Shown: positions 3,901 through 49,553 of the stretch, in pieces
Position numbering within the stretch: the stretch's first letter is position 1
How the letters are laid out: every line of letters begins with the position of its first letter
Source of the DNA: Cystobasidiopsis lactophilus
Lineage: Eukaryota; Basidiomycota; Agaricostilbomycetes; Agaricostilbales; Chionosphaeraceae
NCBI GenBank assembly: GCA_001599975.1
Contig: BCIO01000004.1
Span: 2,267,328-2,331,327, forward strand
Length of the DNA: 64,000 bases
Reading direction: 5' to 3'
Position numbers and translations under genes: made by a program
The notes under the pieces: generated by a model
Database searches by the model: none
What the model was told of the DNA's origin: nothing
What the model saw: the letters and a program-made list of their open reading frames with translations, nothing else

Positions 3901-6900
3901 ACGGCAGCGGCACCGCCAACCTCGCGCCCATGTCCGACAAAGAGTTGCGCTCTTATTACAACGAGTTGCTCAAGAGTCGACCTCTTTTAATGCAACCGAG
4001 GGGCCTGGTATCGTTCCACGCTATCGTCTCCGATGCATCGCCGGACAAAAAGAAGGCCCGCCGGTTGGCCAGCTCCATCTTTCACACTCTGGTTTCGCAC
4101 CTTTCAGCCACCAACAATGCGACTCTAGTGAAGAGCGTCATTGAAGCGTTTTCTTCTCTCCAAGCGCCTGCGATGGTGGAGTCGCTCGCCCTGGTCCTGA
4201 AGCCGCCAACGTTGCAGAAGCTGCTAGCTCACCTCCACCCCTCCGACCGCAAGGCTGCTCTCCGCGCTCTTCTACGAACATACCCTCTAGCGACCACCCA
4301 AGAGCTACAAGATCAGCGGTCGCTCGCTTATAGGAATCTAGTGGCGCTTTTGAACTGTAGGCCGCTACTCAGGTGTCATGTTGACGAGAGTCTAAAGCGG
4401 ATTCCAGGTGACGAACGCCTCATCCGGCTTGCTGCGTTGGATGTCTTGATCCCGAGCACGTATGAAAAGCTGTCGCCCAAGCAAAAGCTGGACGTTCTGG
4501 AAAATCTGCAGCAGAGCCTTGCCGATCAAGTGAGTCTCTTTGATGTTCTTGCGATCCAGTTATGCTCACCAAATTCCCAGGATGTGCGAGAGTACCTGAT
4601 CCGGCTGCAACTTGCCTCAGAAACCTTCCTTGCGGTCATATCGTCCTTCAACCTTCAGCTCCAGCGAAGTCATTCGAGCCCAACGAAGAAGGCTAAGACC
4701 GTCCCGTAGGTCGTAACAATACCACAAACGCAGAGGTGGCTAACTTGCACTTCAGGGATGGCGAATCCGACGAAGCCAAGGTCGCACGAATGGCTTTGTT
4801 CCTCGACTTGGTGGACCTGTCTCATTGTGGAGCCTCGCCAGCCTTGGTTACGGCCCTTTTGGATCTGACAGCAGCAGCGGTTGGCCAAACAACAAGCCAA
4901 GCCTCTACCGATTTGAAGCGCGTTCTCATCCAAGCGATGGCCAACTTGCTCGCCCGCACCGTCGCCCACTCTGCTTCGTTCGGCGATGTTCGCATTGCAC
5001 CTGTTCTAGAAGTTGTCAAGAGTAGGTTCCCTTCGTTCAGCGCGAACAATCCTTCCTAACCGTGATGCTTGCAGCTTCGACGAACCCCCAGCTGACCAAC
5101 AACAGCTTGCTCCTCATCTCACAGTTCACTACAATCGCTCCTCAGCAGGTTGTTCTACACGTCATCCCGCTCTTGACAATCATGGGCACTGGCGTCTTGC
5201 TTCGTGACGACGCTGCTGCCCAGAGGACGGTGGAAGCGGTGCGTTGCGCGCACATTCTGCTCTTCAACGGTCCAGCTGATAATGACTTCTTATACACAGC
5301 TTTTGACGAGCGTTTTAACGAGCGTTATCCAAACTCAGCAAACCAGCGGGAAGACTCGATCGGAGTTAATCGAAGCGATGGCTCCGGTCGTGCGCACTTT
5401 CACCGACGCGGTAGCCCACATCCCACCGCACCGACAGCTCAAGTGAGTGTGTTTCTTCAATGGGAAGGCGTCCTCTGATATGCTTCGCAGGCTTTTGTCG
5501 ATTATGGTGAAGGCGCTGGGCCCTCAAGATTTCTTAGCGCCAGTCGTTCTTTTCCTCCTCGACTTTGAGCAGTCCGCCACTGCGACCGTGTCCGACATCA
5601 ATGCCCTCCCGGGCGCATTGCTGGACCAATTTGCTACTCGAGATCACTTGGCGGCGCTCGGACAATTGTCCGAAGAGCTAAAGAAGATCGCGCTCTCCAA
5701 GGTGACGTCGAAGGCGGTCATTCTGTCGCACTTCCTGGAGCACAGGCTCTCGTCGACCGCTTTGCACTCTCAAGTCGATGCCGCGCATGCTCGCAACGAC
5801 TTCATCTTCGATTCGGCGCTGTCGAGCATGATGAAGAGCTTTGTTCTTTCCGATGCCAGCTCGGTCGCCTTCAACGCGAAGGGTCTGAGCGCGTTGGCTG
5901 CCCGGTTGCTTTCTTCTGGTGCATTTACCAACGTCATCACTTGGCTTTTGGATCTTCGACGGCCTGAAGTAAGTTTACCTGTTGCCATTCCCCCCTGCTG
6001 GCTCATGTAGGATCGACAGATCTCTATGAAAGCCTTTGGATTCCTCGAAAAGCGTTTGGGCCGCGCCAAAGCGGAAAGCAAGGCCGCATTGGCATCTGCC
6101 TGCTCCGCCGCGCTGCACAACATTGTCGAGTTTTTGACGTCCTCAGAGGGCGACCACAAGCAAATCGCGAAGCTTGTCGTTCGTATCTGTGGCGCCGATG
6201 ACTTGGCGGACCAGCCTACATTGGCCAAGATCTTTGACCTCTATCTGGACTCCGCTCGCTCGCCGACAGTGACCACACTGGAGACACTTTCAGCAATGTT
6301 GTGAGTATCGCTGCTCTTTATCCAAGATCGACGTATCCTGAAAAGAGCTTTGCAGGCCCGTCCTCGGTCCTCGACTTATTCCCAAGGTCGAGAAGGTATT
6401 GGGCGTCGTGCGTAATTTGCTTGAGGCATCACCAGGTTGGCAACACGTTGGATTCTATAGACCGAAGTGGTTGCTTACAGAATGTTTCCGCAGACATCAA
6501 ATTGCAGGATGCGGCTGTTCGCGTTTTGAACTCCGTGTTGGCCTCGCTACCCTCTTTCGTGGAGCATTTGCTGCCCGACACCATCAAACTGCTGCTATCA
6601 CCAAAATTGCGACAGAGAAAGCTAAAGAGCGTGGGCGCTTTTGGCAAGATCTTGACGTCAAGGCTGCCGCTGCCGACTGTCCACAGGTTGCTGGCAGGTG
6701 TGCTCGCCAGGGTCGATGATACGGGGCGGGCTTCTGCTCTGCACCTTCTCCAACGCAGTGTAGAAGCGGTATCAGCTGCCGATGTTGCGCCCGTCCACAA
6801 AGCTATCTTCGCGACTCTCCTGGAAACGTTCGAGAACGGCAGCAAGGCGGTCGGTGCCTCAAGCCGGGCGGTCTTCTTGGCGCTCTCCTTGAAGCTCGAC

Positions 6901-7661
6901 TCCAACGCCTTCAAGCCTCTCACCCTGCGTTTGGTGGATTGGGCCTTTTTGGACGCCACAAGTAAGTGTCGGCAAACGCGTTGCATGGTTCTTCCCCCTG
7001 ACTTCGCTGCTTGCAGGATCCAACGCTCGCCAGACCGCCTTGTACGATCTGTCGACTTTGCTTTTCAAGGAGCTGGAGGCAGTTTACTTCGACTTTTTTG
7101 GCACGCTCATCGAACCAACAATAACGCTTCTTGACTCTTTTGCCAACGGTTCACAACACGACATTGGGCTCTGGACGTCACTCATGGCAACCTTGGAAGT
7201 CTCGTTGTCTTTCGCCAAGCCCGGTAAGCCGATCATTAGGGTGCATGGAAGCCTTGATCTTATTGGAATAACGCCCAGATTTCTGGACCTTGACTCGGTT
7301 ACACACCTTGCTTGAGCCTATCTTGTCTCAGACCGCAGTAGTCGCCAAAAACCCAGCCACCTCTGACAATTTCGCTCCGGTCCTGCTCGCCTTTGCGACT
7401 GCTGCGTCGGACTTCGAGACCTTGGTCAAGGAGCTCAACAGCAACTTGCTCGCCCAGACCCGACAGCATCCTGTCTTGGCGCTGCGATCGCTGGATGCAG
7501 CGTGGGACAGCATTGGCCACTCGCTTATGCCATTCGTGCCTGAAAGCATTCCCTTCTTTGTGGAATGTCTTGAGGGCGAGCCGGAGGTGGAAGAAGCGGC
7601 CCGAGCGCTCATCAAGACTATCGAGGGCAGCCTGGGCGAGAGTTTGGATGCATACTTGTAG
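966..7661 (+). CDS. UTP10: U3 snoRNP / small-subunit processome protein UTP10 (HEATR1)
   Basis: Large HEAT-repeat protein of the t-UTP subcomplex, which acts in the nucleolus in rDNA transcription and early 18S rRNA processing. The start at 966 gives the family-typical N-terminus (MSSSLAQQLKAIS, then WLIRRF-like EWFIRRFR and IHEFNV, continued across the first intron at 1325-1397). Further exons carry alternating hydrophobic helices throughout. The C-terminal exons (about 7018-7661) match the conserved BP28/HEATR1 C-terminal region, including ALYDLSTLLFKELEAVYFDFF. The stop is at 7661. I see well over ten introns of 45-110 nt, several with GTGCGT, GTGAGT or GTAAGT donors; the longest uninterrupted exon is about 3.17-4.5 kb. 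Spliced length is close to 1,900-2,000 residues, normal for fungal Utp10. Several internal junctions (about 2550-2670, 3140-3175, 5230-5450, 6300-6480) were not resolved base by base. Confidence 0.9.
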
Positions 7662-11925: not shown

Positions 11926-13848
11926 ATGGCCTACCCTGCTTCTGCTGCCAGCCCCGAACACGCCGCCCTCTTGGGCCACACCATTGACAAGCACCGGCTC
12001 CAGTTCGTCTCCGTGCTTGGCCTTGGCGCCTATGGCGTCGTGTACTTGGCCCGCGACGTCTCCGCCGAGATCAACGCCTCCTCCGCCACCGACCCGTCCT
12101 CGCCCTACTCTGGCAAGGGCTACTACGCTGTCAAGTGCCTGAACAAGATTGGCCTCGACGCCCGCCAGCGCTCGTTCCAGCGCCGGGAGATCGCCTTGCA
12201 CACGTTGGCTTCCTCTCACCCCAACATCGTCTCCCTCCACCGGGTCGTCGAGACCAGCAGCGTCATCTACGTCATTCTCTCCTACTGCCCGGATGGCGAC
12301 CTCTTCAGCATGATTACCGAGCAGTCCCGGTATCTCGGCAAGGACGAGCTCATCAAGTCGGTCTTCCTCCAGATCATTGACTCTGTCGACTTCTGCCACA
12401 ACCTCGGCATCTACCACCGTGACCTCAAGCCAGAGAACATTTTGTGCTGTGATGGAGGAAAGAAGGTCATGTTGGCCGACTTTGGGTTGGCAACGGCGGA
12501 AAAGCAATCGTGGGATTTTGGCTGCGGGAGCACCTTTTACATGTCGCCAGGTGAGACTCCTTTCGCTCATTCTTGTTCCCGGTGGCAGAGGTGCTGATTG
12601 GCGGCTTTTCGCGACTATACAGAGTGCCAAGGCGGCATCTTCCAGCGTCTTGGCTCTTACTCGACTCTGCACAATGACATCTGGTCTCTTGGCGTCATCT
12701 TGGTCAACCTCACCTGCGGCCGCAACCCGTGGAAGCAGGCCTGCCCCAACGACGAGACGTTCCGCGCCTACGTGGACAACCCCGACTTCCTGCAGTGCAT
12801 TCTGCCCATCTCGGACGACTGCAACGACCTGCTCAAGCGTATCTTTGCGCTCAACCCGCTGGCCCGCATCTCGCTGCCAGAGCTGCGACAAGCGGTCAAG
12901 GCTATGCCAAGGTGGACTATGACGGAGACGGAGTTGCGCAAGGCGACCAAAGCCACCCGGGAGGCTGCCCGCGCTTTCATTGGCACCGACGCCGTCCACC
13001 CCGCCGAGGTCTCTGCCGATTCGTCTCTGTCATCTTCCGCCTCGGAGCAGCTCTTCGACGCCTACCCAGAATCGCTCTCATCCGCCGATTCGAGCACTGT
13101 CTGCTCCTCCACCGGCTCCACCCAGTTGCCAGATTGGGAGCGCCCCACCGGCGACTTCCCAGTCAAGCCGCTGCCCCCTCTCCCGTCTGCGACTGCCAAC
13201 GCCTCGATGGACGCCCTCTACGCGCAGTCTGACCTCGCCGCGTCGTCAAATATGGACCTCGACATGCTGTCCCGCGACCGGTCTTCTACGCCACCGCTTG
13301 TCGGCCGCTCTCCGCTGACTGAGTTCGCCACACCGAAACCCAATTGCGGCGAGTTTTCTCACCGCCGCGACTCCTCCCTCAGCGACACGCCGTCCTCTGG
13401 CTCTTCCTCCGGCGACAGCTGGTCCGACCAGCCGCCAACGCCGGACACGCCCTCGTTCACCAGCGCGCTCTCGCAGCAGTCGCATGTGCAGGGCTCCATG
13501 CAACTCGATGTCTCATCCGCCATCTCCAAGATGGAGCATCTCGCCAGCATGGCTTCCAGCAAAGCCTCCAACGCCAGCTTCGAGTCGTACTACCACGACT
13601 ACGCTGCGTGGGCCTCGTCGGCGGCAACGGATGGCGCCGACGAGGATAGCGTGCGGTTAGCACCCTCGCCACTGCAAAAGCAAGACTCGCGCGTCTCCAA
13701 CCTCTCTCAGCGGCTGCTCGGCTCACCCGTGAACTCATCACTTTTACGACCCCGGACGGCAGAGTCTCGCCGGCCTCGCACAGCGGAAGCCTTCCGCCCA
13801 CGTACCGGCGACTCATTACGACAACCTCCACGAATCAAGGCGCAATAA
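11926..13848 (+). CDS. Ser/Thr protein kinase of the RAN1/KSP1/VHS1 family
   Basis: Cytoplasmic/nuclear protein kinase related to S. pombe Ran1(Pat1) and budding-yeast Ksp1/Sks1/Vhs1, families tied to nutrient signalling and control of meiotic entry. The chosen start gives MAYPASAAS. Kinase features in order: Gly-rich loop LGLGAYGVVYLA, catalytic lysine in YYAVKCL, HRDLKPENIL (about residue 165), DFGLAT, and after one intron (about 12551-12621) SPECQGG and IWSLGVILVNLTCGRNPW. The catalytic domain occupies roughly residues 20-330. The remainder, about 290 residues, is Ser/Pro-rich and probably disordered, ending with repeated RPRTAE/RPRTG motifs before TAA at 13846-13848. The YMSPE region is read across the intron, so no key residue is missing. 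Neighbours give no functional hint. Confidence 0.9.
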
Positions 13849-14195: not shown

Positions 14196-17100
14196 TCAAA
14201 ATGCACTGATTTTGGCATACGCCGCAGGGGCAAGCCGACGACGAATGTGCTTGATCAAGACCAGGGGGAAAGCGCTGACGCCTGCACGACGACCGCAAAC
14301 TGAGCAGCGTTCGTCCAGCCAGAGGGGCCTGTCGCTTACAGACAATGATGCTGACTTTCCAGATGAACCGTGTCGACAGGACGAATGACATATCTGTTCG
14401 GAATGCGTGTAAGCTTGGGCAGCAGATCGCTCGGAACAAGCTCGACGAACCAAAGTAGCGCGGCAAGAACGCCATGCTCGCCGCGTAGAGGAGCAGAGTA
14501 GCCACTTCGGCAGTAATCATTAAAGGATGCCAGGTCGTGACTTCGACAGCGACCATGACGAGCTCGTTCAAGATGGTGGCGGTGAAAGCAATTGCCACAA
14601 TGTTCACAAAGTCGTTCTCAAAGAGCAGCATGCTGGCGATCATGATGGCGCCACCTGTGTATGTGTAGCAAGATGTGTGAGCGCGAGACTGACACAAGAT
14701 ATTCTTAACGAACCTTGATAGATGGAGATGGCCACCCAGATGAAGAATGTCTTGTAGGAGAGGGAGCGTCCTTTGGTCAGCTCGGCGTAGAGCTCGGGAT
14801 AGATTAGGGCCAGATCTTCGTTGATGTCGGTGTCAAGCACCAAGCTGAACACAGGCCCCATAGTGTAACTAAGGGCCACGCGCTGAGCCAAGACTTCACG
14901 TCAGGAGAGCAGAGGTTCACTGACATGGTTGCGTAGCCAACACTAAGCCAATCTTGGAAAATGGCGACGGGAGAGAAGTAGACGATGCAGGAAAAGACCG
15001 CTTGTATGACGGCGACCAGCAACCCGCGGTGGACCACGAATTGGGCAAGCTTCGAAGAGCGCTTGTAGGAGTTGCGCCCATGCCAGCATAGAAGCTTGCT
15101 GAGATAAGAGAATTGGAGGATGGAGAAGTCGGCGGCGAGGGATGCCTGCTTGCCCTCCTTGCCGACAATGCCTACGCCGACATCTGCCGCCTGGATCATC
15201 GATACATCGTTACCGCCATCACCGATGCAACACACTCGCTTCTTGGTGTAGGCGCGGATGAGGCGGGCAACGTCGGCCTTCTGAGTTGGGGAGCAGCGGC
15301 AGGCCACAACGGTGGGCAGCACCGTGGCGACCTCGATGAAGTCGTTCGAGAACTGGGACATGTAGAGCTGAAGCGACTCCCCGTCAATCACCAAGCAGCA
15401 GTCCGGTTTAGAACGGAGGAAGTCGAGCTCATCACGCGCTATTGCAGGCGAGCTCACTGTTTAGGTCTCGTCCACTTTAGCATGGACCGCTACCAAATCG
15501 CAGGGCTACTGAGCACAAACTTACGCTTGGAAATCTGGTGGATATATTGGTTGCGTGCGACGAGCTTGCTGGAGATGGCGATACAGGTCGCCGTCTCGAT
15601 CTTGTCGCCGGTAAGCATCCAGATCTTGATGCCCGCGTTCCTCAAGAGCTCCAGCGTCATCTTGACGTTGTTCTGCAGCTTGTCTTCCACACCAGTGACG
15701 CCCAGGAGCTCGAGGTTGTGCTCCAGGTGATGGGCAATGACGGCCGCCATAGCTTCGTTGCGGTTTTGAAGCGCCACCCGAGCCTCCTTGAACGCCACCT
15801 CAAAGGCGTTCCAGCCCTCTTCCGTCAATCTCTTGCGTCCCACCACCAGCGTTCGCAGCCCTTCTCGTGCCATATTCCCACACTCCTCCTCAAGCCAGTC
15901 GTTCGTCTGCACAATCTTGGCCATGACCACATCGGCGCCCTTCTCGAAGAACGAGACCTCTTTGGTCTGCATATCTCGAATGACGATGCCCATTCGCTTG
16001 GTCTCGGAGGTGAAAGGGAAGATTTCGAGCACCTCATAAACGAGGCGGTCCCCACCTGGCGCCCGAAGTTCGATGCGCGTGCGGTCTCGGTGGACCAGGG
16101 TCAAGCCGACTGCTTCAGTCCAGTGCACAATGGCGACCTCGTCAGGCGAAGAAGCTTGATAGGTTGTCGAGCCATCGTCATTAGTGACTGGCGTCACATT
16201 GTGGCAGAGGGCCAGCGCGGTGACGATGTCCTTGACGCGAGAAGACATGTCTCGCCGACCTCGACCAACGAAACTGGTGGGCGGCGGCTGTGTTGCCGAA
16301 TCGGGTTTTTGGTGCCCGAAGGAGGTGGCCAGTTGACTTGAAACCTCGTCCATGGAGTCGAAGCCATACGACATGGTGCCCATGTGCAGCTTTTTCAGCT
16401 CCATCTCTGTAATCGAACCATTTACCATTATATCAGACTCGATGGCACCGCTGTCTCAGCACACTGCCCACGCACCGTTCTGAGTGAGAGTGCCAGTCTT
16501 GTCGCTGAGCAAGTACTCGATCCGACCCAGTTCTTCCGGCAATGTACTGGTTCGTACGATGGTGCCCGGAATCTCGGCGTCGTGCATGATCTGGTGGCCG
16601 TAGACTGTCTTGCCCATGTCCAGATTGACTCGCAGTCTGTTCAAGCGCCCGAAAGGGAGAGCTTCAGTTTGGCATGGGAGCAACGGAGATAGAGGGAGAG
16701 ACGAACGAGATCGGAATGATGGTGGAAAATAGGATGAGGAAGCGAAAGACGTAGATGTACCAGAGCCCGCGAAAGCCGTTCAAAGCGACAAGCAGGACGG
16801 ACAGGGCAAAAGTCACCGCGCACAAAATCTGCGTTAATTCATTCCGTTCAGATTTGCTCAGGATAGCAGAGAAGACATGAAGAGGCTCGCCTTGGCAATC
16901 TTATTGATCTCCAGGTCCAGAAGGCCCACTTTGGTCTCGGGGTGGGAAGTGTTCATGACCGCCCTTGTGTCCCTGCCAGTGTAAACGACGAAACCGACAG
17001 CCGAGCCAGCGGCCAGAACGGTGTTGGACCACAGCAGGTTGTCAGCAGTGATGGCAAGCGTGTGGGTGTCGACGTGTTCGTTGAATGGCGCTCCGGTCGG

Positions 17101-18375
17101 CGTTTCGAGCATGTCGGCCGGTTTGGGCGTTCGGATGGTGAGAGTGCCGAGAAAGGAGTGTATATCCTTCGAAGGCGCATCCGCGTAGATTTCGCCATCC
17201 AGGCGTAAGAGCGCCACGTCCGATTTGAGGGCCTGCGTGGACTCCAACGCCACTCTGAGCTTCCAATCCGTCTCGCCATCCAGCTGGTCCGTTCGAATAA
17301 AACAGGTGGCTGAAGCGTCAGAAGTGCGGAGCAAGACGCAGTCGGCTGGCACTCGCTGGTTCTTCTCGATCAAAACCAAGTCGCCGACTCGGAGGCGAGA
17401 GGAGGGGATCGAACGAAGAGGTGGGATGCCAATCGCCGCCTCTTCTTCGTCAACTAATGTAGGAGTCGCCAGGTGGTGGTGGGAGACGGAAAGCGGCGCA
17501 GGTGAGGCATTGAGGTCGAGGATCTGGTAGCGGGTCGAATTGGCGGCCGTGTCCCGAACGTGCCTTTGCCAATCATCATACGCCTCCTTTCCTATCGTAA
17601 CCAACAGCACAAATGCCAAAGGGACGATATAGGTGGCCAGATAGCCTGCACAAGCCCAACATCAACATCTGAAGGACTGCCCAGCTGTCAGAAACTCACC
17701 TATCCGAAGGGCAGGGATGACTTGGGACAAGGCAACGAGAAGGAAATAAAGGTTGAAGAAGAACTTGAACTGCTCGTAGAGCACCAAAGGCAGAAAGCTG
17801 ACGAGGTTGTACTTTTGATTTTGGACCACGTTGGCGGCAAACTTGCTTCTGAGCGAGTCTGTCCGCACGAGACGAGTACAATCAGCTACTTGGAGTAGAT
17901 TGAACGGTCAAGTAGCGAACCTGGAGCTTGAAAGGGGATGGTGCGCGGCGACCGGGAGGAGGATTCGCGTTGGAAGAAGCGCTTGAAGAAGGGTTGCTTT
18001 GTCTGGGTCTTCGGGAGGGAAGCCCATAAGCGCCTGAAACTTATAAAAGCGACCACAAAGGAAGAGCGGGCTTACAGCGACGGTGGGCATTGAGAGCTCC
18101 TTGTCATCAGCCCCGTCGTCAACAGCGCTTGGCCCTGTTCCCTCGTCATCGTCATCCCCTAGCAGCGTGGGCGTGCTAGATTGCAGAAGAGATTCGCCCT
18201 CGTCGTCGACCGCTGCGGCAGAGGCCAGCGGGCGCCGGCGCCAGCGAGTGTTCGAGTTGCCCCTTAGCGAGGCCGCCGAGCGCAGGGGCCGGAGCTGGTT
18301 CTGGCTGCTGCTAGTGTTGCTGTTCATAGCGCGTTGGTGGCGATCTTGGAGCTCAATGCCGCGGTCGTGGGCCAT
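14196..18375 (-). CDS. NEO1: P4-type ATPase, phospholipid flippase of the NEO1/ATP9 class
   Basis: Lipid flippase of Golgi/endosomal membranes that keeps aminophospholipids in the cytosolic leaflet; Neo1-class enzymes work without a Cdc50 subunit. The ATG at 18375 opens an acidic/Ser-rich N-terminus. After two introns comes the diagnostic Neo1-type segment [18 protein letters not shown] followed by [20 protein letters not shown] (first membrane pair). Then: [10 protein letters not shown], the P-type signature [12 protein letters not shown] (phosphorylated Asp), [43 protein letters not shown] and the C-terminal membrane block with [15 protein letters not shown]. Three small 3' exons join as [19 protein letters not shown] and [20 protein letters not shown], ending at TGA 14196-14198. 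There are about ten introns. Both the phosphorylation and hinge motifs are intact. Confidence 0.93.
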
Positions 18376-32440: not shown

Positions 32441-34978
32441 TCAAGGGTCGGAGATGGTGTACTTGGATTGCTTTCTGAAACGATGGCCATAGATGAAGAG
32501 CACGATGGGCACGGGGGCTGGATTAATTGTAGTCTTTAGGGACATCAAGGGGAAGCAGAGAGGCAAGCTGCTCACCCAGAGCAGTCATTAAGCAGGCCAC
32601 CAGCAGCGAGGCGAACTGAGGCTTCAACTTGTCGTACATCTGATTCGTGAACATGGGAAAGGCGGCGGCGAAGGCACTGTGGTCCGAAGTCAGATGAGGG
32701 GCGAGCCTGGTGGCAAAAGCGAGCAACTTGCCACCGAGTGAACGTGCTGGCTGCCAAGGAGCTTGCCGCCTATGAGGACCATCATCAGATAAAACCACTA
32801 CTTGAGAGGGTCTCTGGAATACTGACTACCGGCTGTGGGCAGCAACCAAGACGAGTTCAGGTCACGGCCTCTCAAAGCATGGCAAAACAAGGAAACCTAC
32901 TCTAAAGGCGTCTACCAAAAAGGTGAATGTGGCAGAAAATATCCATAGTAAAGCAATGCCGAACTGTTAGTGCGGACAACCGGTGAGCTTCAATCTGGCC
33001 AGTGTTCCAAGACCACTCACGGGAACAGTTGCAATCTGCCCACGAGTCACGTCAGTGCAGATGATACTACATGCCACTGAAACATACGATAGGAGCAATC
33101 CAATGAACGTTCGGGTAAGTGGTGAAGGCGAAAATGAACATTGACAAGGGAGCCAAGATGCTGTGAATCCAGACGAGTCAACGCTGACGATAAATGGAGG
33201 GCTTGCAAGCCTCACCCTCCTACTATTCCTCTTTTAAGATCTATAGTCAAGACGTGAGGATTCAAACTCCAACGAAAGCTCGGCCAGGCACCTACGCTCT
33301 TCCGGTGGCGGCCGCTTCCCCAATGCCGCTGCCTTCCGCAGATACGCTTTCGTCCACCAATCTAGACAGTCCAGTTGAGTCAAGTCTGGAAGGTCGGTTG
33401 ACTCAGCAAAACAACGCACACTGTCCAATTGCTCCCAACGTGTTGCCAATGCCAATGCCCAAAAAGCTCAAACCCAGCAAGCTCTCCTTCCATCCCTTTT
33501 CGCCAATAAAAACAATTGGGAAAGCAGAGAAGAACATGTATCTGTGCCACCCCCTGTCAGCATTGTGGCCACGAAAGGCCGTCACCCTTGTGCGTACAGA
33601 ACTCCCAGCACGACGGAGGTCCACAGACTGCGCCCCGGGCCGTTCTTAGCCGCCTCATACCATTGATTGAAAATAGCACACACCATAAGAATAGGCACAT
33701 CGGTTCTAAAGCCAAAATCTCAAACGGCTGTTGAAGACGGACGTCAGTGTGATCAAAAGGATGATCGGATTTGATAACGACCTGAAAAGAATTGTAAATC
33801 GTGTGCGCAGGGTGATAAAGAGAGAGAAAAGGACCTTATAAAAGCTGAATAGGAGCACTTGAGGGACACTCCGAGTGTCTTGGTCTAGAAGGGACTGATA
33901 GCGGTCATCGCCTGTCTCTTTGCGCAACTTTTTGGCTCTCGCTTGCAGGAGTTTGGGCGCGAATGTCCTGTCAAGCACAATGTCAGGGTCTCTCGAAGGG
34001 AGTTGGCAGGGAGAGCATCATACTCGGGCACAAAGATGGTGACCAGCGCGAGCAAGACGCCAGTCCTGAACAAATCGTTGGACTCCGAGCCCGCACTTCG
34101 AGTCCGGAACTTACCAGATTATCTGAGTCCACCATACCCACCGCCACCCGGCTCCAGCCACAATAAAGCCAGCCAAGATAGGTCCACTGCTTTGCCACTT
34201 AAGCCTTTGCCACCAAGATCTGAGGGAAATGCTGACACTGCTGGGCCACAGGTTGGAGCCCATGTGTTGACATTCATCTGTTACAAAACTCAGCAACAGA
34301 GACAGACGGTGCGTTAATGGTCGCCGTACGGGATTCGACACGTGCGAGGGGTGGAACATGTCTGTCACGGATCCGCCGGAGACGGAAAGAAAGGCGGAGC
34401 CAGCAAGTCCACTAAAGTCGAAACGCATTAGGATTGCGAGAAAGCAGTCGGGCGCTTGTAACCCACCTGAGGAATCGAGCAACGAGCAAGGTCTGGATGT
34501 TCTTTGCCAGAGCGACGGGCAGGTTGAAAAGAAGAAAGATGGCAAACGAAACGATGTACACAGGCCGTCTCCCAAACTGCTTGCTTAATGAGTCGGCGAT
34601 ACTGGGGCCCGGATCGGCGCACTCACCCATTCTGAAAGGGGACCTCTGTTCGTTCGGCTTTAGGAATCCAGTCCGAGAGTGCGTCGAAGGCCAGAGCACT
34701 CACAGCAGCAGAGGAGAGAGACCAATCCCACAGACATAGAGGGCCATGCCCAGGGTGGCAACTTCCAAGCTGACATGAAGATCGCGGACTATGGCCTCTT
34801 CGCATCCTGCAATCATTGACGAGCAGCACTGAGTCGCGAAAGCGCAGGAAGCCAGAATAGTGACGATCATCCATTTGCGCCAGGTCGGTAGGTTGAGAGG
34901 GTTGGCAGGGTCATCATCGTCGAATTTGAGCAGAAGAAACGCCTCAGCCGCCGTCTTTTCGCTGCCTTCATCGCTCAT
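32441..34978 (-). CDS. MFS transporter, DHA1 drug:H+ antiporter type (copy 1)
   Basis: Plasma-membrane facilitator with 12 expected membrane helices, of the polyamine/multidrug DHA1 group. The ATG at 34978 gives MSDEGSEKT; the first conserved element DDPANPLNLPTWRKW is the usual entry to helix 1 in these fungal transporters. Then EEAIVRDLHVSLEVATLGMA (helix 2), motif A in FGRRPVYIVSFAI, GLAGSAFLSVSGGSVTDMF (motif C region), GPILAGFIVAGAGWRW, and the central cytosolic loop APKLLQARAKKLRKETGDDR. The C-terminus reads VLFIYGHRFRKQSKYTISD with TGA at 32441-32443. Ten or so introns interrupt it. It is paralogous to the gene at 36341-38680 (same loop and motifs) but clearly diverged. I cannot tell the substrate. 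Several junctions between 32800 and 34250 are approximate. Confidence 0.8.
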
Positions 34979-35326
34979 CTTCGAGCTCGGTGTTCACTTC
35001 GCGCGTTCAGCACACCATTCTGGCGGTCGAGAATAGAACGTGTAAACGCAGGGAAAAACAGAATGGCCTTCCGACGAGCTGGCTGAACTCGAAGGCGGGG
35101 CGCATATCGAGACACGGCACGCCCAAGATCACATTCGGCATCTCGAACTAGCACCGCTAACACGCCTTTGAAGAACTTTTCGGTGCTCAAGATGGGCCGG
35201 CTGTCGTGGGTCTCAGCAGAGCACTTTCATTTTCAAAGGCCCGCCGCGGCGAAGCGGTGGCAAATTTCACGTGCGAGTCTGCGGGCGACCATCAGCTGGC
35301 AATCAGAGATAAATGTGCTGAACGGG
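34979..35326. other. Upstream region of MFS copy 1
   Basis: 348 bases of unique sequence between the MFS copy 1 start codon and the inverted-repeat arm beginning at 35327. No gene recognised; promoter role inferred from position. Confidence 0.45.
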
Positions 35327-35648
35327 CGAAGAGGCGGGCGACGACGAGGAGATCGACATCGAGGCGACCAAGAGGCGGTACGGGGAAGGCATTGCGCAGG
35401 TGCTGCAGCAACAGGCTCAGCAGTCGGCGGCGGCAGGCAAGACGGCCACCGAACCGACTGGCCATTACAAGGGATGGGGCGGCGCAGACCGCAAGATGGC
35501 CGAGGCGGTGCTGTACGACGGACGGGCTGGCTCAAGAGATCGCGGCGGGCGAGGGCGGAAGCAAGGCTTCGAGCTCTCGCTGGACGGCGCCACCCTGCTC
35601 GGCCGGCGGAAAGTCCACCCTCTGGCCCAGTCCATGTCGCCAGCGTAG
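35327..35648 (+). pseudogene. Copied 3' end of the RCK2-type kinase gene
   Basis: The plus strand encodes the kinase C-terminal tail in frame (for example [43 protein letters not shown] at 35646-35648), identical to the genuine gene at 39285-39606. There is no start codon, no kinase domain and no promoter of the parent gene, so this is a gene fragment produced by duplication, not a working kinase. The near-perfect identity means the copy is very recent or kept alike by gene conversion. Confidence 0.9.
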
Positions 35649-36183
35649 TCTTTGGCACGCCACGCCACACACCACTCGCAATTGAACGGCCCTTTGACGA
35701 CACCCACAGCACACTCACCCTCCACTTCGTTCACCCACTCAATACACCTTTTCTTTTGTCTTCAGCCTTTCTTACGACCTTTCTGGGACGCTCAAAACGG
35801 CGCCACCCAGCTTGCAAGCATGTTGTAACCGCCACCGCCAAAGAATCGTTTCGCCCCGGCCCACACTCAGTTTTCTGTCCGCATCGCCTTTAATCCTTTC
35901 ATCCGCCAGCAATCGCGCCCTCGATCCGCTGGCGTCTGTCCCGTTTATATTTGTCGCCTTTTCCTTGCCTCAAAAGTCGAAGCTTCCTTCGTCCGACCCG
36001 TGTTCGCCGCATCGACAGAAGACCCCCCTGCCCCCGCTCCAAGCCTTGTATCCCTAGAAAAACCTGCACACAGCGCGCGTTCTTGCATTCCAGCATAGAA
36101 TACCTGCGGACTCATGATGCAGCCTTACACTCTCCATCGGCGAAATAAGTCGGCGATCGGCTTGATGACTCTTTCGTCGTCTA
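35327..36183 (+). repeat. Inverted-repeat arm A (857 bp)
   Basis: This segment is the reverse complement of 38750-39606. Positions pair as p and 74933 minus p over the whole length without any net insertion or deletion. The one difference I noticed is T at 36089 against C in the other arm. The plus strand of this arm holds an out-of-place copy of the last 107 codons plus the 3' flank of the RCK2-type kinase gene. The arm ends at 36183, where the two sequences diverge after CGTCGTCTA. Confidence 0.95.
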
Positions 36184-36201
36184 TGTCGCCAGCGTAGTCT
36201 T
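36183..36201 (+). repeat. 19 nt templated insertion at the outer arm A junction
   Basis: The bases directly after the arm repeat, without a mismatch, the 19 nt at 35634-35652 that span the kinase stop codon (ATGTCGCCAGCGTAGTCTT). The native arm B continues instead with GTCGCATGA after the same CTA. The shared GTCGC at this point looks like microhomology. Confidence 0.85.
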
Positions 36202-36340
36202 GAAAGTCGATTAGGGTATGGCTAGAACCACTGACAAGAGAAGCTGTGTAGAAGTCTAAAGCACCGGCTAATCGGGGTTTGCCAAACGCGCGGCGACATG
36301 AGAAAATGCAAGGTGGCAGACAGTTGTTGTTTCAGGCATA

Positions 36341-38680
36341 CTAGCTGACAGAAAACTTGGACGTTTTCCTGTACTTGTGGCCGTTAAGGAAAAGTACGAT
36401 GGGCACAGGAGCTGCGCGGCAGGAGTGAGAAGATGGAACAGCAGTAGATCGATCAAACGCTCACCAAGAGCTGTCATTAGGCAGGCCAAAAGAAGAGTGG
36501 CGTATTGCGGATGCAATGTGTTGTACATTTGAGTGGCGAACAGAGGGAAGCCAGCGGCCAGAAAGCTACAAACTGAAATTAGCGAAGGTGCGAGGGAAAC
36601 TTGGTGTGCGCACTCACCACCGCAGTAAGGTGTTCGAGGACATGGCACTTGCCGCCTGGTGAGATCAAGAGAAGCGGTCAGTGAGTTGCTTAAAAAGTAC
36701 GACTAAAAATTGGCTCTTACGACAGGCTGTAAAGTACACTTCAGTCTGCATCGAGGCTCCCGCATGTATGAGATAGTGCTTACACGCAGTGCATCTACCA
36801 AGAATGTCCAAACGGACGAGAAAATTAAAACAGTCGCAACGCCAAACGGTACAGTGGCGATCTGCAGTATAGCTGTTTAGCTGTCTCGCCCATGGGAATC
36901 AGAGGCGAAGACGCACAATGGGCACAATATAGTGAACGCTCGGGTATGTTGTAAATGCGAACCAAAACAGTGATAGAGGCGCGATGATCCTGGTGGGCCT
37001 AACTGAGCTGAGAGACTCGGGAGGGAACGAAGAACAACGAACCCTCCTGCAATTCCTCTTCGTAGGTCTGAGCAGGTGAAGCGATGTTTAGTGTGCGACT
37101 GCTCTGCGAAAGATGGCACGCACGCTCTTCTGGTGGTGGCCGCTGCCCAAGCTCTTTAAACTTCGCGAGGTAGCGCTTATTCCAGTAAAGAATCTGCCAC
37201 GCGGTGCCTAGGATATTGCCGAGACCGATACCCAAGAAACTTAGGCCGAGTGTAGGGGTACTCCACCCTTTCGCCAGAAAGACGATCGGGAAGGCCTGTT
37301 CGGACGGGTAAGCTCGAGTTTGGCCTTATTAGCTGGGTCAACTTACTGAGAAAAACATGTAACTAGCAGGCACGGTCAGCTTGTTCTTTTATGCGTATAC
37401 GTTTACAGGAAAGTATACATGATGGCGAGAAGAATTCCACTCCAGAGGCTGCAGCCAAGTTGTTAGTCTTTGCCACCGCCGGCGGAGGATTTACGGACTT
37501 CAAAAACAGTGCCATGGGTTCGAGCGCAAGAATCTCCAAGGGCTTGTACAAGCTGTAAAGGATGACTTTTGCCATACTGCGAGTATCTTTGTCCAGTTTA
37601 GACTGGAAGCGGTCGTCGCCGGTCTCTTTTCTCAGTCGCGCAGCTTTCTTCTTCAGCAATATTGGCGCAAAAGTTCTGCTTTGCTGGTTAGAATAGCTGT
37701 AGACGTGCAAGGAGCACGACTAACTCGGGCACAAAGACCACCAGGAGGACCAGATTAACTCCAGCCCTACGCGATTTCTCAGCCATCCATCGAGAACCCA
37801 CGGTAGCTACCTACCAGATAGTGTTAAAATAGAACACCTGAAGGGCCTTGTCAGGACCGACACAAGAAGAAAATCGAGGAGAATGAACGGACCCATCTCC
37901 ATCCCGCCCCCGCGACAATGAACCCAGCCATGAGAGGCCCGCTTGTTGGTCCAGCCAGAGGTGAGGCAGAATAAATTGACATCTGTAGGAAAACATCACG
38001 GTCAGGAATGTCGCGCCTCTTTAAGCAAATAACGACGCGAACAGGTGTCAAGACTTTGGAGGGTGCAAAGACGTCTGCAACGGAGCCGCCTGCCACAGAA
38101 AGGAATGCGGAGCCGGCAAAGCCACTGCCCAGATCAACTCCATATTCAGCTTGTTGCCTGGAAAGCAAAACAAATTTTAGACCCACGTTAAGAATCGGCC
38201 AATCAGTAGAGCAGCGACATTCGGTGCGCATGCGACCAATATGTTGAAGCACATAAAGCAGAAGAAAGAGATGACATAGATGGGTCGACGGCCATAGAAT
38301 TCGCTGAGCGGCCCTCTACGAGAATATCAGTCAAACCAACTCAGCTCTTGCAACGCCAAGCGGAGACAAAATGAGACCGACAATAGCATAGGCGAGATGG
38401 ACAGCCCAATGACGAAGAGCGATAGGCCCAAAATGGCCACTTCGTGCGAGATGGCAAACTCCGTCATTAGGGCCTCTTCGCAGGAGGTGATGAGCGAGGA
38501 ACAAGACGTGACGCAGAACGAGCAGGACGAGACGATGATAATGATCAACCACTTCCTGACGGTCGAAAAGTTCAAAGGAGAAGCAGGATCCTCCGCATCA
38601 AAAGCATCCAGCTGAAATCGCTTCTCGTCCAACTTGTCAGAGCCATCCTGCGGCTCTGCGGGCGCTGATTTCTCTTCCAT
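36341..38680 (-). CDS. MFS transporter, DHA1 drug:H+ antiporter type (copy 2)
   Basis: Paralogue of the preceding transporter, also on the minus strand. The ATG at 38680 gives MEEKSAPAEPQDG, then DPASPLNFSTVRKWLI, CEEALMTEFAISHEVAILGL, motif A in GPLSEFYGRRPIYVI, GFAGSAFLSVAGGSVADVF, MSIYSASPLAGPTSGPLMAG, GAGWRW and the loop LLKKKAARLRKETGDDRFQS. The C-terminus PIVLFLNGHKYRKTSKFSVS ends at TAG 36341-36343. About ten introns. No broken motif is apparent. It lies wholly inside the spacer (36184-38749) of the 857 bp inverted repeat, and its start codon is only 70 bp from arm B, so its promoter overlaps the kinase 3' flank. Substrate unknown; polyamine or drug export is the family's usual role. 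Confidence 0.82.
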
Positions 38681-38749
38681 TGAAAACTTATAACGACTGA
38701 GTCAGGGGCAGCATGCTGGTTGATTGGGATGGAAAAGAATTCATGCGAC

Positions 38750-39606
38750 TAGACGACGAAAGAGTCATCAAGCCGATCGCCGACTTATTTCGCCGATGGA
38801 GAGTGTAAGGCTGCATCATGAGTCCGCAGGTATTCTATGCTGGGATGCAAGAACGCGCGCTGTGTGCAGGTTTTTCTAGGGATACAAGGCTTGGAGCGGG
38901 GGCAGGGGGGTCTTCTGTCGATGCGGCGAACACGGGTCGGACGAAGGAAGCTTCGACTTTTGAGGCAAGGAAAAGGCGACAAATATAAACGGGACAGACG
39001 CCAGCGGATCGAGGGCGCGATTGCTGGCGGATGAAAGGATTAAAGGCGATGCGGACAGAAAACTGAGTGTGGGCCGGGGCGAAACGATTCTTTGGCGGTG
39101 GCGGTTACAACATGCTTGCAAGCTGGGTGGCGCCGTTTTGAGCGTCCCAGAAAGGTCGTAAGAAAGGCTGAAGACAAAAGAAAAGGTGTATTGAGTGGGT
39201 GAACGAAGTGGAGGGTGAGTGTGCTGTGGGTGTCGTCAAAGGGCCGTTCAATTGCGAGTGGTGTGTGGCGTGGCGTGCCAAAGACTACGCTGGCGACATG
39301 GACTGGGCCAGAGGGTGGACTTTCCGCCGGCCGAGCAGGGTGGCGCCGTCCAGCGAGAGCTCGAAGCCTTGCTTCCGCCCTCGCCCGCCGCGATCTCTTG
39401 AGCCAGCCCGTCCGTCGTACAGCACCGCCTCGGCCATCTTGCGGTCTGCGCCGCCCCATCCCTTGTAATGGCCAGTCGGTTCGGTGGCCGTCTTGCCTGC
39501 CGCCGCCGACTGCTGAGCCTGTTGCTGCAGCACCTGCGCAATGCCTTCCCCGTACCGCCTCTTGGTCGCCTCGATGTCGATCTCCTCGTCGTCGCCCGCC
39601 TCTTCG
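38750..39606 (-). repeat. Inverted-repeat arm B (857 bp, native copy)
   Basis: Reverse complement of arm A. This is the original: on its minus strand it continues without a break from the kinase coding region (39285-39606) through the stop into the 3' flank, ending 70 bp before the start codon of MFS copy 2. Confidence 0.95.
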
Positions 39607-42160
39607 TTGAGGTTGGTGAGGAAGCCGCGGGCGCCAGAGCCGCCCGGGCCATTGTAGGCGCGCCGCCGGGCCCCTTCCTCCTCCATCCGGTGCACGGCGT
39701 ACGTGATGTCGAACGCCTCTCGGAGCGAGTTGACGCCCGGGGAGCGCATCGGCTGGCGCCCGCCCAGCCGGTCTTGCAGCAAGGGCGAGTCCAGAGGCAT
39801 GGCGCTGCTCACTTGCGGCACCGCCAGCGTCGACTTGTTGCTGGCGGCGCTCGTCGCGGCTTGCTGGGGTGCTGGTGCCGGCTTCTCGTTGCACCAGGGG
39901 TGTGCGAGGAACTCGTCGATGGTGTACCGCTTCTCCGGGTCGACGCACAGCAGGTGGGTGATCAGGTCCTTGGCTGTAGAGCGTACGTGCCCGTTCAGCC
40001 AAGCTCATCAAAAAAACAGAGAGGCAGAGGTAGTGCCCAGAGCAATCTTACAGGAAGCGCTAATGTCATCCCACCACGGACTTAGGAAGGTGTAGTAACC
40101 CCGGGCGACCTTTTCGGTGAGGACGTTGATGCTTTCCTGCGAGGTCATAGTGATGGAATTTGAGCATGTGTGCGACACGGTCAAGAAGTGGGAGGCAACC
40201 CACATCGTAAAACGGCGGGAAACCACAGAGCAAGGTGTAAAGCACGCATCCGAGCGCCCACATGTCCACGCTCTTGCTGTACCGCTCGTCCTTGACAATC
40301 TCCGGAGCCGTGTAGCCCACGGTGCCGCAGGGCGTCATGGTCTCCTCGTTCCAGACGATCTTGCTCAGCCCAAAGTCGGCGATCTTGACCACGCCGATTC
40401 CACCGCCGCCGACGCCGGGCACGAACTCGCCTTCGTCCTCCTTGTCCTCGTCGTACGGCCGGGCCTTGTTGGTTTTGGAGGGTACGATCGGTATCGGGTC
40501 GAAGAGCAGGTTTTCCGGCTTGATGTCACTGTTCATCCCAGCAGGCCTCAGCACCCCGGACGAGAATGCTGGAGGGAAAGGAGGGATCAAACCGATGGAC
40601 TACGCCGCGCTCCTCGTGAAGGTAGCGGATGGCATGGGCGACCTGGAGGATGACGTGCCTGGACAGCTCCTCGGAGAAGTAGGTGAGCTTGACGATCTGG
40701 TGGAACAATTCGCCTCCATCCCTGTGCACGACAACCGACAAGAGCATCAGCTTAGCCCACGGAGGAGGTGGAGGTGGCAAAAAAGATGACGCACATTAAT
40801 TCGAGCACTAGGAAGTAGTGGTCTTTGGCTTCGGTGAAGGCCAGGAGCTCGACGATGCCCTGGTGTCGGAGGCCGCGCATGATTTGAACTTCCTTGAGGA
40901 TGTTGGCTCTCTGTAATGACACACGACACAAAACGAAAAGCAGCAGAAAAAGCAAGAACAGGCAAACAAAGGTCGGGTACAAGCCAAGGGTCGGGTACAA
41001 GCGCGTTAACGAGTCGGCAATAAGTAGTGTGAATTGGGCGTATACCAGGGCGAGGAGCAAAGGTGAAGGGGGAGAGAAAGCAAGGCAGTCACAGTCAGCA
41101 TGCAGCTCTTCCAACGGGATCAAGAAACGATAGCACTGATCCTTTGGGAGAGCGGAAAACAAGGCCGACCAAGGTCCGCGCGAGCACGAGGCGGTAGGAG
41201 AGGGAAGAGTGGGAGCGGAAGGACCCGTACCTCTGTCGCGCGCGGTTTCTTCTTGGTCATGTCTTTGTTCAAGTGTTTTCCACCGTGCTGGAGACGTGCG
41301 GCAACGACAAGAGGCAGAGGGGAGGAAGGAAAGAGGGCGCAAACGACAAATTTATGTGAGGCACGATTATAAGATGGAGAGGGGGAAAGCAAACAGGTCA
41401 GTCAGCTTTGGTTGTTCTTTCAAAATTGAAAGCGGGAATTGGGCATAATTTGGTGGCGGCGCAGTAGGTGAGGTTGTCGTCGCAAGAGGGGGAGTAACGA
41501 GGCACTATGGGACGGGAGAGAGACCGGAAGGCGCGAACCAAGGAAACGAGGCTAACCTGAGTGTGGCTGAGTTCGTATTTGCGGACGCATTTGATGGCGA
41601 CCTTTCGCTTGGAGATCTTGTCCTGGGCCTTGTAGACGTTTGAAAATGCGCCGCTGGGTCACCGGGTGTCAGTCAACGAGCCGACTTGGAAGGCCGGTGA
41701 CGACAAGGACCACTCACTCGCCCATCTTGTCCATCAGCTCGAGGTTGGACGGCAAGCCTTCGTAGACTGGCATCCTCGACTTGGACCGCTTCTCCTGCTC
41801 GACCACTGCTTTCGACCGTGAGCTTCCGAGGTCCCCTAGTGCAACGAGGGCAAGGGACAACGCACTCCGCTCTGCCCGCTCCCGATTGTCGACCCCGGCG
41901 ACGTTGGTGACGTTGGCCAACCCATAGCCTTGCTGCTGTTGCTGCTGTTGCTGAGCGTGGGCAGGGTTGGGAGCTGCGAACTCGTTGGCCTGGGAGCGAG
42001 TGGCGGGCACGGGCGCGAAGGCGGCGTAGTTGGCGTCCATGGCCGACTGCGGGGCCGCATTGTGCTTCTGTGCGTGCTGCCTGGAGGTCGAGGGGGAGGA
42101 GGACGGGGAGGAGGTGTGCTTCTTGTGGATGACCGACTTGAGCGAGTCCATCAGCGTCAT
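39285..42160 (-). CDS. RCK2: CAMK-group kinase of the RCK2/SRK1 (MAPK-activated) type
   Basis: Stress-pathway kinase normally activated by the Hog1/Sty1 MAP kinase. The start gives [15 protein letters not shown]; the N-terminal region has a Q8 run and ends with [16 protein letters not shown]. The glycine loop (GAFSNVYKA) is split from that by an intron. Then [16 protein letters not shown] (catalytic Lys), [42 protein letters not shown] (HRD split by an intron near 40525-40590), the family-specific insert [76 protein letters not shown] and [12 protein letters not shown]. The C-terminal tail contains [16 protein letters not shown] and ends at TAG 39285-39287. One intron (40911-41556) is 646 nt long. 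The last 322 bp of coding sequence belong to inverted-repeat arm B. Confidence 0.93.
40911..41556 (-). other. Exceptionally long intron of the RCK2-type gene
   Basis: The acceptor (CATTACAG before AGAGCCAAC) and donor (CACTCAG before GTTAGC) are clear and the reading frame is kept. At 646 nt it is about ten times longer than most introns in the window. It includes purine-rich stretches and a near-duplicate GGTCGGGTACAAGC at about 40970-41002. No coding content recognised. Confidence 0.8.
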
Positions 42161-44254: not shown

Positions 44255-45022
44255 CTACGAAGCCGCTGCCGGTTGCTTCTCCTCCAAGCCCTTCTTGAAC
44301 CCTTCAACAGTCCGGACGACCTCGCTCCCACCTGCCTGCTGCAGCACGCCAACCAAACCCCGCATGGAGCCCTCGACCAGCCCAACGATCTGGGCTTGCA
44401 GAGTCTTCAAAGGCGGCAAGTCCGCCACCCTCTTGATACCCTCCACGCCAAACTCTTTCGCCTCCAACACCCCGCTCAACATTCCCAGCTTGATCTCCGC
44501 CTCTGGCACCTTCTTCGCCGCTGCTGCTCCTTTGGCTGGAGGTGCGGCAGAAACATTGAGGCGCTTGGCGTGAGTGTCGAGCACCTTTAGGAAAGCCTTC
44601 AGAGCGACCGGGTCCAAGGGGGCGGAGGAGGAAGAAGTTATGGCGGCCATTGGTCCACCGGAGTTGGCGTTCAAAAGCTGGGAAGGTAGATGCGGCAAGG
44701 CGCGGAAAACGGGCGGGAGGAGGTTGGACTTGAGCACGGTCAGCTTCAACCCTTGGTCCTCTTCCTGCGCCGGAAGCCGCTTGACGGCCGCTCGAAAAGG
44801 TTCGAAGTCGGCCACGTTGACATTTTGGAAGCGTAGGAAGAGGATGAGCTGGGCCTGGGAGAAGAGCTCGGTGTACTGCTGGACTAGGAGAGACTTCCGG
44901 GCTGGGAAGACCCGCGTCTTTTTGGCGTAAGACAAGGCGCCTCGGAAAGGCTTCTTGGATGATTTGGAGCTCCTCGTCGCTTGCGCGAGCGCTGCCTTGG
45001 AGGTCGATGCTGCCGCCGACAT
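44255..45022 (-). CDS. Mitochondrial large-subunit ribosomal protein uL10m
   Basis: L10-family protein of the mitochondrial ribosome stalk base. Intronless. I chose the ATG at 45022 because it gives a Ser/Ala/Lys-rich presequence without acidic residues (MSAAASTSKAALAQATRSSK); an ATG at 45088 would add 22 less presequence-like residues. The mature part begins KKTRVFPARKSLLVQQYTEL, the usual start of the L10 domain in fungal MRPL11-like proteins, followed by ILFLRFQNVNVADFEPFR, GLKLTVLKSNLLPPVFR and, in the second half, EFGVEGIKRVADLPPLKTLQ and GLVEGSMRGLVGVLQQAGG. It ends with a Lys/Glu/Ala-rich tail at 44255. Divergent from COX6. Confidence 0.82.
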   Translation of the reverse strand: MSAAASTSKAALAQATRSSKSSKKPFRGALSYAKKTRVFPARKSLLVQQYTELFSQAQLILFLRFQNVNVADFEPFRAAVKRLPAQEEDQGLKLTVLKSNLLPPVFRALPHLPSQLLNANSGGPMAAITSSSSAPLDPVALKAFLKVLDTHAKRLNVSAAPPAKGAAAAKKVPEAEIKLGMLSGVLEAKEFGVEGIKRVADLPPLKTLQAQIVGLVEGSMRGLVGVLQQAGGSEVVRTVEGFKKGLEEKQPAAAS

Positions 45023-45245
45023 TTTTTGAGGCGTTCTGTGATGCGCGCCCATATAAGGACACATTTCCGGCTTTGAAGTGCCGGACACTCACCTTAAACT
45101 ACTCTTGTGGGTACTCAAGGTCCAGCAAGCAGGTCGTGGAGCAGGCGCAAGCCTCACAGCGTTCGAGGCAAGCCAAAAAGTCACGTTTTTCTGGGCCTCC
45201 AAACTCAAGCCGGCCAAGGGCTGCCCTGTTCAGCCATCGTCAAAC
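45023..45245. promoter_or_regulatory. Shared upstream region of uL10m and COX6
   Basis: 223 bp between two divergent start codons of nuclear genes for mitochondrial proteins. A bidirectional promoter is inferred from geometry and shared destination. Confidence 0.55.
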
Positions 45246-48427: not shown

Positions 48428-49258
48428 ATGGTGTCCGCCCCGAGAGCTTACGTGCGTCGCCGACCTTGCTGCTCAACGTTGCATGTATGCTGACCGTGCA
48501 TGGCCCACAGTCCAAGGTCGCCAAGGTTCCCCGTCGCCCATTCGAGGCTCCTCGTTTGGATGTGCGTTTTGTGCCTCCTCCGTGCTGAGAACACCGTCTC
48601 AATGGATTGCAACGACAACAGGCCGAGTTGAAGCTGGCTGGCGAATATGGCCTCCGCAACAAGCGCGAGATCTGGCGCATTTCCCTCACCCTCTCCAAGA
48701 TCCGTCGTGCCGCCCGAGAGCTGCTCAAGCTCGACGACAAGGACCCCAAGCGCCTCTTTGAGGGCAACGCCTTGATCAGGTGCGTTAATTCCCACCATTC
48801 CGTGGGCGTGCATCGCTCACCGCTGCACTTCTCGAATGCACAGGCGACTAGTGCGCATCGGTGTGCTCGACGAGTCGCGCATGCGCCTCGATTACTGCCT
48901 CGCCCTCAAGCTCGAGGACTTCTTGGAGCGCCGCCTCCAGACCCAGGTCTTCAAGCTCGGCCTCGCCAAGTCCATCCACCACGCCCGCGTCCTCATCCGC
49001 CAGAGGCACATCCGCGTCGGCAACCAGATCGTCAACGTCCCCTCCTTCGTCGTCCGCTTGGACTCACAAAAGGTGAGGACTTTGCTAGAGCTTTCAGCGT
49101 GCCCAAGATGCTGATAGCTCTTCGTCGACTCGCAGCACATCGATTTCGCACCCACTTCGCCCTACGGAGGTGGACGCGCGGGCCGTGTCAAGCGAAAGCG
49201 CGCTGCCAACGCTGCCAAGGCCGGTGCGGAGGATGCAGAGGAGGAGGACGACGAGTAA
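48428..49258 (+). CDS. RPS9: 40S ribosomal protein S9 (uS4)
   Basis: Cytosolic small-subunit ribosomal protein, primary 18S rRNA binder. The ATG at 48428 gives MVSAPRAY, then in further exons [57 protein letters not shown], the S4 RNA-binding domain ([40 protein letters not shown]) and [20 protein letters not shown], followed by an acidic tail (EDAEEEDDE) and TAA at 49256-49258. Four introns; the first three exons are 24, 51 and about 175 nt. Complete match to uS4. Confidence 0.96.
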
Positions 49259-49553
49259 TCGCAACCATCGCCTCTCTGTCTTTCCATCTTTTCTGCACTC
49301 TCATCTCTTCACTCTGGTCTTCCAACTCTTTTTTCGCCCACACGCGCTTTCGCACTGGTTGAATAAAAGGGGGCAATGGGCCAAGCATGGTCGGAAACTT
49401 TGAAAGGGGTTAGAACGCAAGAGGATCACATTTGGAATTTTGTAAACCCCTTCCAGCTCCAATTCTCCCTTCCGATGCGAGTGGTACGTGTGCGAGCGGC
49501 CAACGAAAAGTGCTGCACAATAAGTTACAAAGTGGTCGCCAAGTCTAACAGGT

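Follow-up and report, generated by a model that had tools for sequence, protein, structure and literature searches.

A probable recent inverted duplication of a kinase gene end between two tandem transporter genes in a basidiomycete

The kinase and transporter genes and the repeat that joins them

The locus lies within a 64 kb window, the whole stretch of DNA analysed here, and along the minus strand it runs in the order kinase gene, repeat arm B, transporter gene MFS2, repeat arm A and transporter gene MFS1; the GC content is 56%. The CaMK-group protein kinase gene (39285..42160, minus strand) was modelled as eight exons encoding 646 aa, with its 3’ end inside arm B. The predicted protein matches Pkinase (E 6e-70), and its best solved structures are chains of CaMK1G and CaMK1 among the best 60 of 2282 matches. 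The RCK2 type named in the preliminary description is a putative assignment. The third intron of this gene holds the only array reported by Tandem Repeats Finder, two copies of an 18 bp unit with a 94% match (40967-41002).

The spacer between the arms is occupied by MFS2 (36341..38680, minus strand), an open 17-exon model of 483 aa whose exon boundaries were set by eye, guided by the MFS family, so that single boundaries may be off. Its 16 introns of 44-72 bp all follow GT-AG, and by eye several donor sites deviate from the usual consensus; sixteen introns in one gene are unlike Candida. Residues 52-431 match MFS_1 (PF07690, E 4.9e-37), and this match, together with a frame that stays open across 17 exons, supports the model and bears out the preliminary description of a complete transporter in the spacer. 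Among solved structures, Quinidine resistance protein 2 comes closest (E 1.8e-7). The protein also contains GPLSEFYGRRP, an instance of the GPLSE-x-x-GRRP type motif that we take to mark DHA1 transporters, and the combination of motif and MFS match agrees with a DHA1-type drug:H+ antiporter. MFS2 falls below the curated multidrug-transporter cut-off of NCBIfam, whose models were made for prokaryotes (best model TIGR00880, 91.2 bits against 131). A search of prokaryote genomes returned ten loci, all bacterial, with best-segment identities of 23-30%, and these were of no use for synteny.

MFS1 (32441..34978, minus strand), its start and stop codons placed by eye, is a tandem paralogue beyond arm A. 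In a spliced alignment 289 of 481 aligned residues (about 60%) are identical to MFS2 and no stop codon intervenes; over the first residues this alignment was made to run beyond the start codon, and the fit across the short exon 34237-34277 is poor, so that we are unsure of the exact model and integrity of this gene. Its open frame at 34111-34584, the only one scanned alone, matched no Pfam family. On their sequences, the two transporter genes are an older, diverged tandem pair.

Elsewhere in the window, pieces of a P-type ATPase gene (15490-17661, minus strand) match Cation_ATPase and E1-E2_ATPase above cut-off, and a second protein kinase domain, represented by its C-terminal part (12598-13848, plus strand), scores just under the Pfam cut-off. 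Housekeeping genes have left traces in a BP28CT domain (6238-7134, plus strand) and a ribosomal protein L10 match (44255-45088, minus strand), both below cut-off, and in a ribosomal protein S4/S9 N-terminal domain above cut-off (48589-49362, plus strand). Rfam at gathering scores recovered no RNA family in the window, and ARAGORN, run with the bacterial code, which may miss intron-containing tRNA genes, recovered no tRNA.

Arm A (35327..36183, plus strand) lies between the two transporter genes and arm B (38750..39606, minus strand) at the boundary of the kinase gene and MFS2. A base-for-base comparison found 856 of 857 bp identical in opposite orientation across a spacer of 2,566 bp, and thus near-identical opposite copies on the same chromosome, that is, a long (segmental) inverted repeat. 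The single difference is a T at 36089 in arm A, opposite a C in the complement of arm B at 38844, which is position -164 relative to the MFS2 start codon. This exact alignment reproduces the coordinates and the near-perfect identity first described for the repeat. Divergence at one of 857 sites is 0.12% (95% limits 0.003-0.65%). When the window was searched with an exact seed of 20 and no gaps, the arms were the sole repeat of at least 60 bp found, direct or inverted, and their length rules out a pairing by chance. Repeat-induced point mutation has left no sign, the arms differing at a single site.

The arm that was probably copied and the presumed scar left behind

Arm B combines 322 bp of kinase coding end (39285-39606) with 535 bp of intergenic DNA, which by the model coordinates makes up most of the 604 bp separating the kinase stop codon from the MFS2 ATG; it is therefore plausible, given this position, that arm B contains the MFS2 promoter. 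The last kinase exon (39973-39285) stays open across the arm boundary. Arm A carries the same kinase fragment without the rest of the gene, its frame being open only over 35322-35648, for 108 codons and a stop. Since arm B continues in frame with exon 8 of the kinase, and arm A holds a fragment only, arm A is the inserted copy. The same direction follows from an extra templated patch that lies at the inner edge of arm A and not at that of arm B, where the sequence continues straight towards the MFS2 start. The proposal that arm B is native and arm A its inverted copy therefore stands on two observations.

The patch itself extends the preliminary description, for identity to the kinase end continues beyond 36183. 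It consists of 18 nt (36184..36201, plus strand) from the kinase stop-codon region, matching 39281-39299 on the minus strand and the arm A copy of that region at 35634-35652 on the plus strand. The exact match covers 19 nt (36183-36201), and from 36179 it extends to 23 nt at 96%. Within the window the patch sequence is otherwise present only at the kinase end and in its arm A copy. As a control, 200 18-mers were drawn at random from the window, and 16 that started in 35300-39700 were dropped; for the other 184 no match elsewhere in the window exceeds 13 nt, compared with 18 nt for the patch. GTCTA precedes the patch and GTCCA precedes its source, a near-match at four of five positions. At the outer junction (35326/35327) no clear microhomology was seen by eye, and no patch. 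Template switching during repair or replication typically leaves a short templated patch of this kind. The inner junction thus bears the secondary patch expected of a templated insertion, and the donor is retained, arm B keeping the donor sequence in the kinase gene. With arm A and the patch removed, MFS2 and MFS1 would be 139 + 348 bp apart.

Taken together, the sequence very probably records a recent local inverted segmental duplication that arose by template switching. How the repair proceeded, which way the copying ran and that the event is recent are inferences from a single sequence. Between MFS2 and MFS1, a break or stalled fork would have been under repair when the growing strand took up 857 bp, in inverted orientation, from the kinase/MFS2 boundary 2.6 kb away. 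The strand would then have fallen off and re-primed 549 bp back at the GTCTA/GTCCA near-match, adding 18 nt of kinase end, before its end was joined to the 3’ flank of MFS2, for a total insertion of 875 bp. Break repair in yeast yields templated insertions, some of them inverted or compound, in cells with defects in RPA, Rad27 or Dna2 (PMC11724301, in the part of that study used here). The median insertion there measures 88 bp in rad27 mutants and 187 bp in dna2 mutants, and a copy of 857 bp is long by comparison, which counts against a template-switch origin, as does an outer junction without clear microhomology.

The age of the duplication is suggested by the contrast between the two pairs of copies at the locus. 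MFS1 and MFS2 agree at 289 of 481 residues and the arms at 856 of 857 bases, so that the arms appear far younger than the transporter pair. It could be, alternatively, that the arms are older and that continuing gene conversion between them has kept them nearly identical.

A different concern is that arm A was created in the assembly or in the library, from a chimeric molecule, and is absent from the genome. Amplified DNA is known to give rise to inverted chimeras that span a few kilobases and join at short near-matches. However, the sequence rejoins the original locus on both sides of the insertion, which a single chimera would not do; the arms are separated by one mismatch, and the flanking kinase and MFS2 models are open. 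We regard an artefact as unlikely.

Judged from the gene models, the 875 bp insertion leaves the kinase and MFS2 open; the model of MFS1 is less certain. At present the insertion most likely has little or no effect. The duplication looks like an ordinary recent rearrangement rather than a switch for a gene, and an accident of DNA repair is its most likely cause. Secondarily, homologous recombination between the arms may invert the spacer.

What inversion of the spacer would change

The preliminary description held that recombination between the arms would invert the spacer and swap the sequence upstream of the transporter, and suggested that the locus might act as a reversible cassette or a copy-number switch. 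We inverted the spacer in silico with crossovers at seven points of the arms. Four of the seven simulated crossovers kept every base of the 926 bp upstream of the MFS2 ATG, and the other three altered position -164 only; the next upstream difference after inversion lies at -927. The near upstream sequence is constant because both arms hold the same 857 bp. The swap is thus real only beyond 926 bp, save for at most one base (-164), and altered sequence next to the gene, as an inversion switch would have, is lacking within that distance. The kinase gene, and MFS1 with 348 bp upstream, were unaltered in all seven simulated inversions. What inversion would change is the orientation of the genes to each other, leaving MFS2 tail-to-tail with the kinase gene and divergent from MFS1. 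A promoter-swapping switch is ruled out by this geometry: an inverted repeat with the promoter inside its arms cannot act as a simple switch of that kind. As for a reversible cassette or a copy-number switch, the window provides no evidence of either.

A broader reading is that the repeat bounds an invertible or amplifiable cassette that alters transporter expression or dosage by some other route. Precedents exist in the sources consulted in part here: in Candida albicans, long inverted repeats mediate inversions as well as changes in copy number (PMC6591007, PMC7371428), and a repeat of 2,049 bp, identical in its two copies, ends the invertible MAT region of Hansenula polymorpha (PMC4238957). 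In engineered yeast repeats, as cited in PMC6591007, arms measured between 185 bp and about 1.5 kb, spacers were no longer than about 8.5 kb, and recombination was up to 17,000-fold higher with longer arms and shorter spacers. The arms and spacer described here fall inside those ranges, which favours the earlier view that they could be a substrate for recombination, and by this analogy occasional inversion is plausible and a change in copy number possible. Against a cassette with consequences for expression stand the arms themselves, which hold most of the upstream DNA and leave 926 bp constant save for at most one base. The present orientation would moreover be that expected of a tandem pair. 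Rates of inversion can also be very low: a Saccharomyces repeat of 4.2 kb around a 24 kb spacer did not flip in about 53,800 mitoses and 950 meioses, according to the part of PMC9731477 consulted. On balance, a cassette of this sort is quite improbable. The locus may seed inversions or changes of dosage later on, but in that role it is ordinary unless movement is observed.

It is conceivable, with a very slight chance in our judgement, that the cassette is neutral to orientation. Because both arms hold the presumed promoter, the spacer could flip without shutting off MFS2. The flip would place MFS2, until then in tandem with both neighbours, tail-to-tail with the kinase gene and divergent from MFS1, the mirror promoter of arm A would drive antisense transcription into MFS2, and the output of the kinase and the transporter would be coupled.

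Equally slender is the prospect that the repeat acts through RNA. The copy of the presumed promoter in arm A would drive antisense transcription into the 3’ end of MFS2, and a transcript running from the kinase gene through arm A would form an 857 bp hairpin that feeds RNA silencing. The geometry allows this, the presumed promoter being mirrored in arm A, and hairpin RNA transgenes are able to silence fungal genes (PMC3733888, consulted in part). The hairpin, however, would need a long read-through.

The idea of a transposon whose terminal inverted repeats carry the transporter has next to no probability and is ruled out as an origin for the repeat: long inverted arms do flank a cargo gene, but the kinase coding sequence of arm B continues the reading frame of its gene, the 15 bases beyond each arm share no target-site duplication, the spacer is filled by the 17-exon transporter model, and Pfam matches include no transposase in the 20 open frames tested of 103 listed.

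Inverted repeats in other fungi

A literature search on inverted duplications or repeats at basidiomycete MFS transporter genes returned a Penicillium review as its sole match. We compare the locus below with inverted repeats from other fungi, as they are presented in the parts of the sources used here.

In C. albicans the repeats resemble those at this locus in being long, near-identical and inverted, in spanning coding and intergenic DNA, and in having kilobase spacers (PMC6591007). Arms there are, for example, about 1.7 kb, and inversion-breakpoint spacers start from about 3.1 kb; at this locus, arms of 857 bp enclose a spacer of 2,566 bp. The difference is that rearrangement was observed in C. 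albicans, whereas a single arrangement is seen here. Amplification in that species proceeds through dicentric intermediates during azole adaptation (PMC7371428). The fork-based amplification described for S. cerevisiae relies on very short inverted repeats, for example 8 bp repeats 40 bp apart (PMC6591007), unlike the 857 bp arms described here.

The Saccharomyces flip/flop region (PMC9731477) is similar in that a near-identical inverted repeat encloses unique genes. Its 4.2 kb arms are gene pairs, its spacer is 24 kb, the arms have been homogenised for millions of years, and orientation changes over evolutionary time; at the locus described here, by comparison, one arm is a partial gene copy marked by the scar of its insertion. 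The MAT region of Hansenula/Ogataea polymorpha (PMC4238957) has identical inverted arms and, at its second locus, a partial copy of a neighbouring gene (SLA2), in both respects a likeness to this locus. Inversion there exchanges the positions of two loci, only one of these positions being active, and nutrient limitation induces it. MFS2, in contrast, would have the same 926 bp upstream in either orientation, with at most one base differing.

There is also a likeness in form with the templated insertions of yeast break repair (PMC11724301), in which, as here, the donor is copied and kept, the insert is inverted and more than one fragment is joined into a compound whole. Those insertions were made in repair mutants and most are much shorter, whereas the present one comprises 857 + 18 bp in a natural sequence. 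The locus offers a clean natural case in which a templated insertion is both large and inverted and its junction scar can still be read, and one that can be compared with the yeast experiments.
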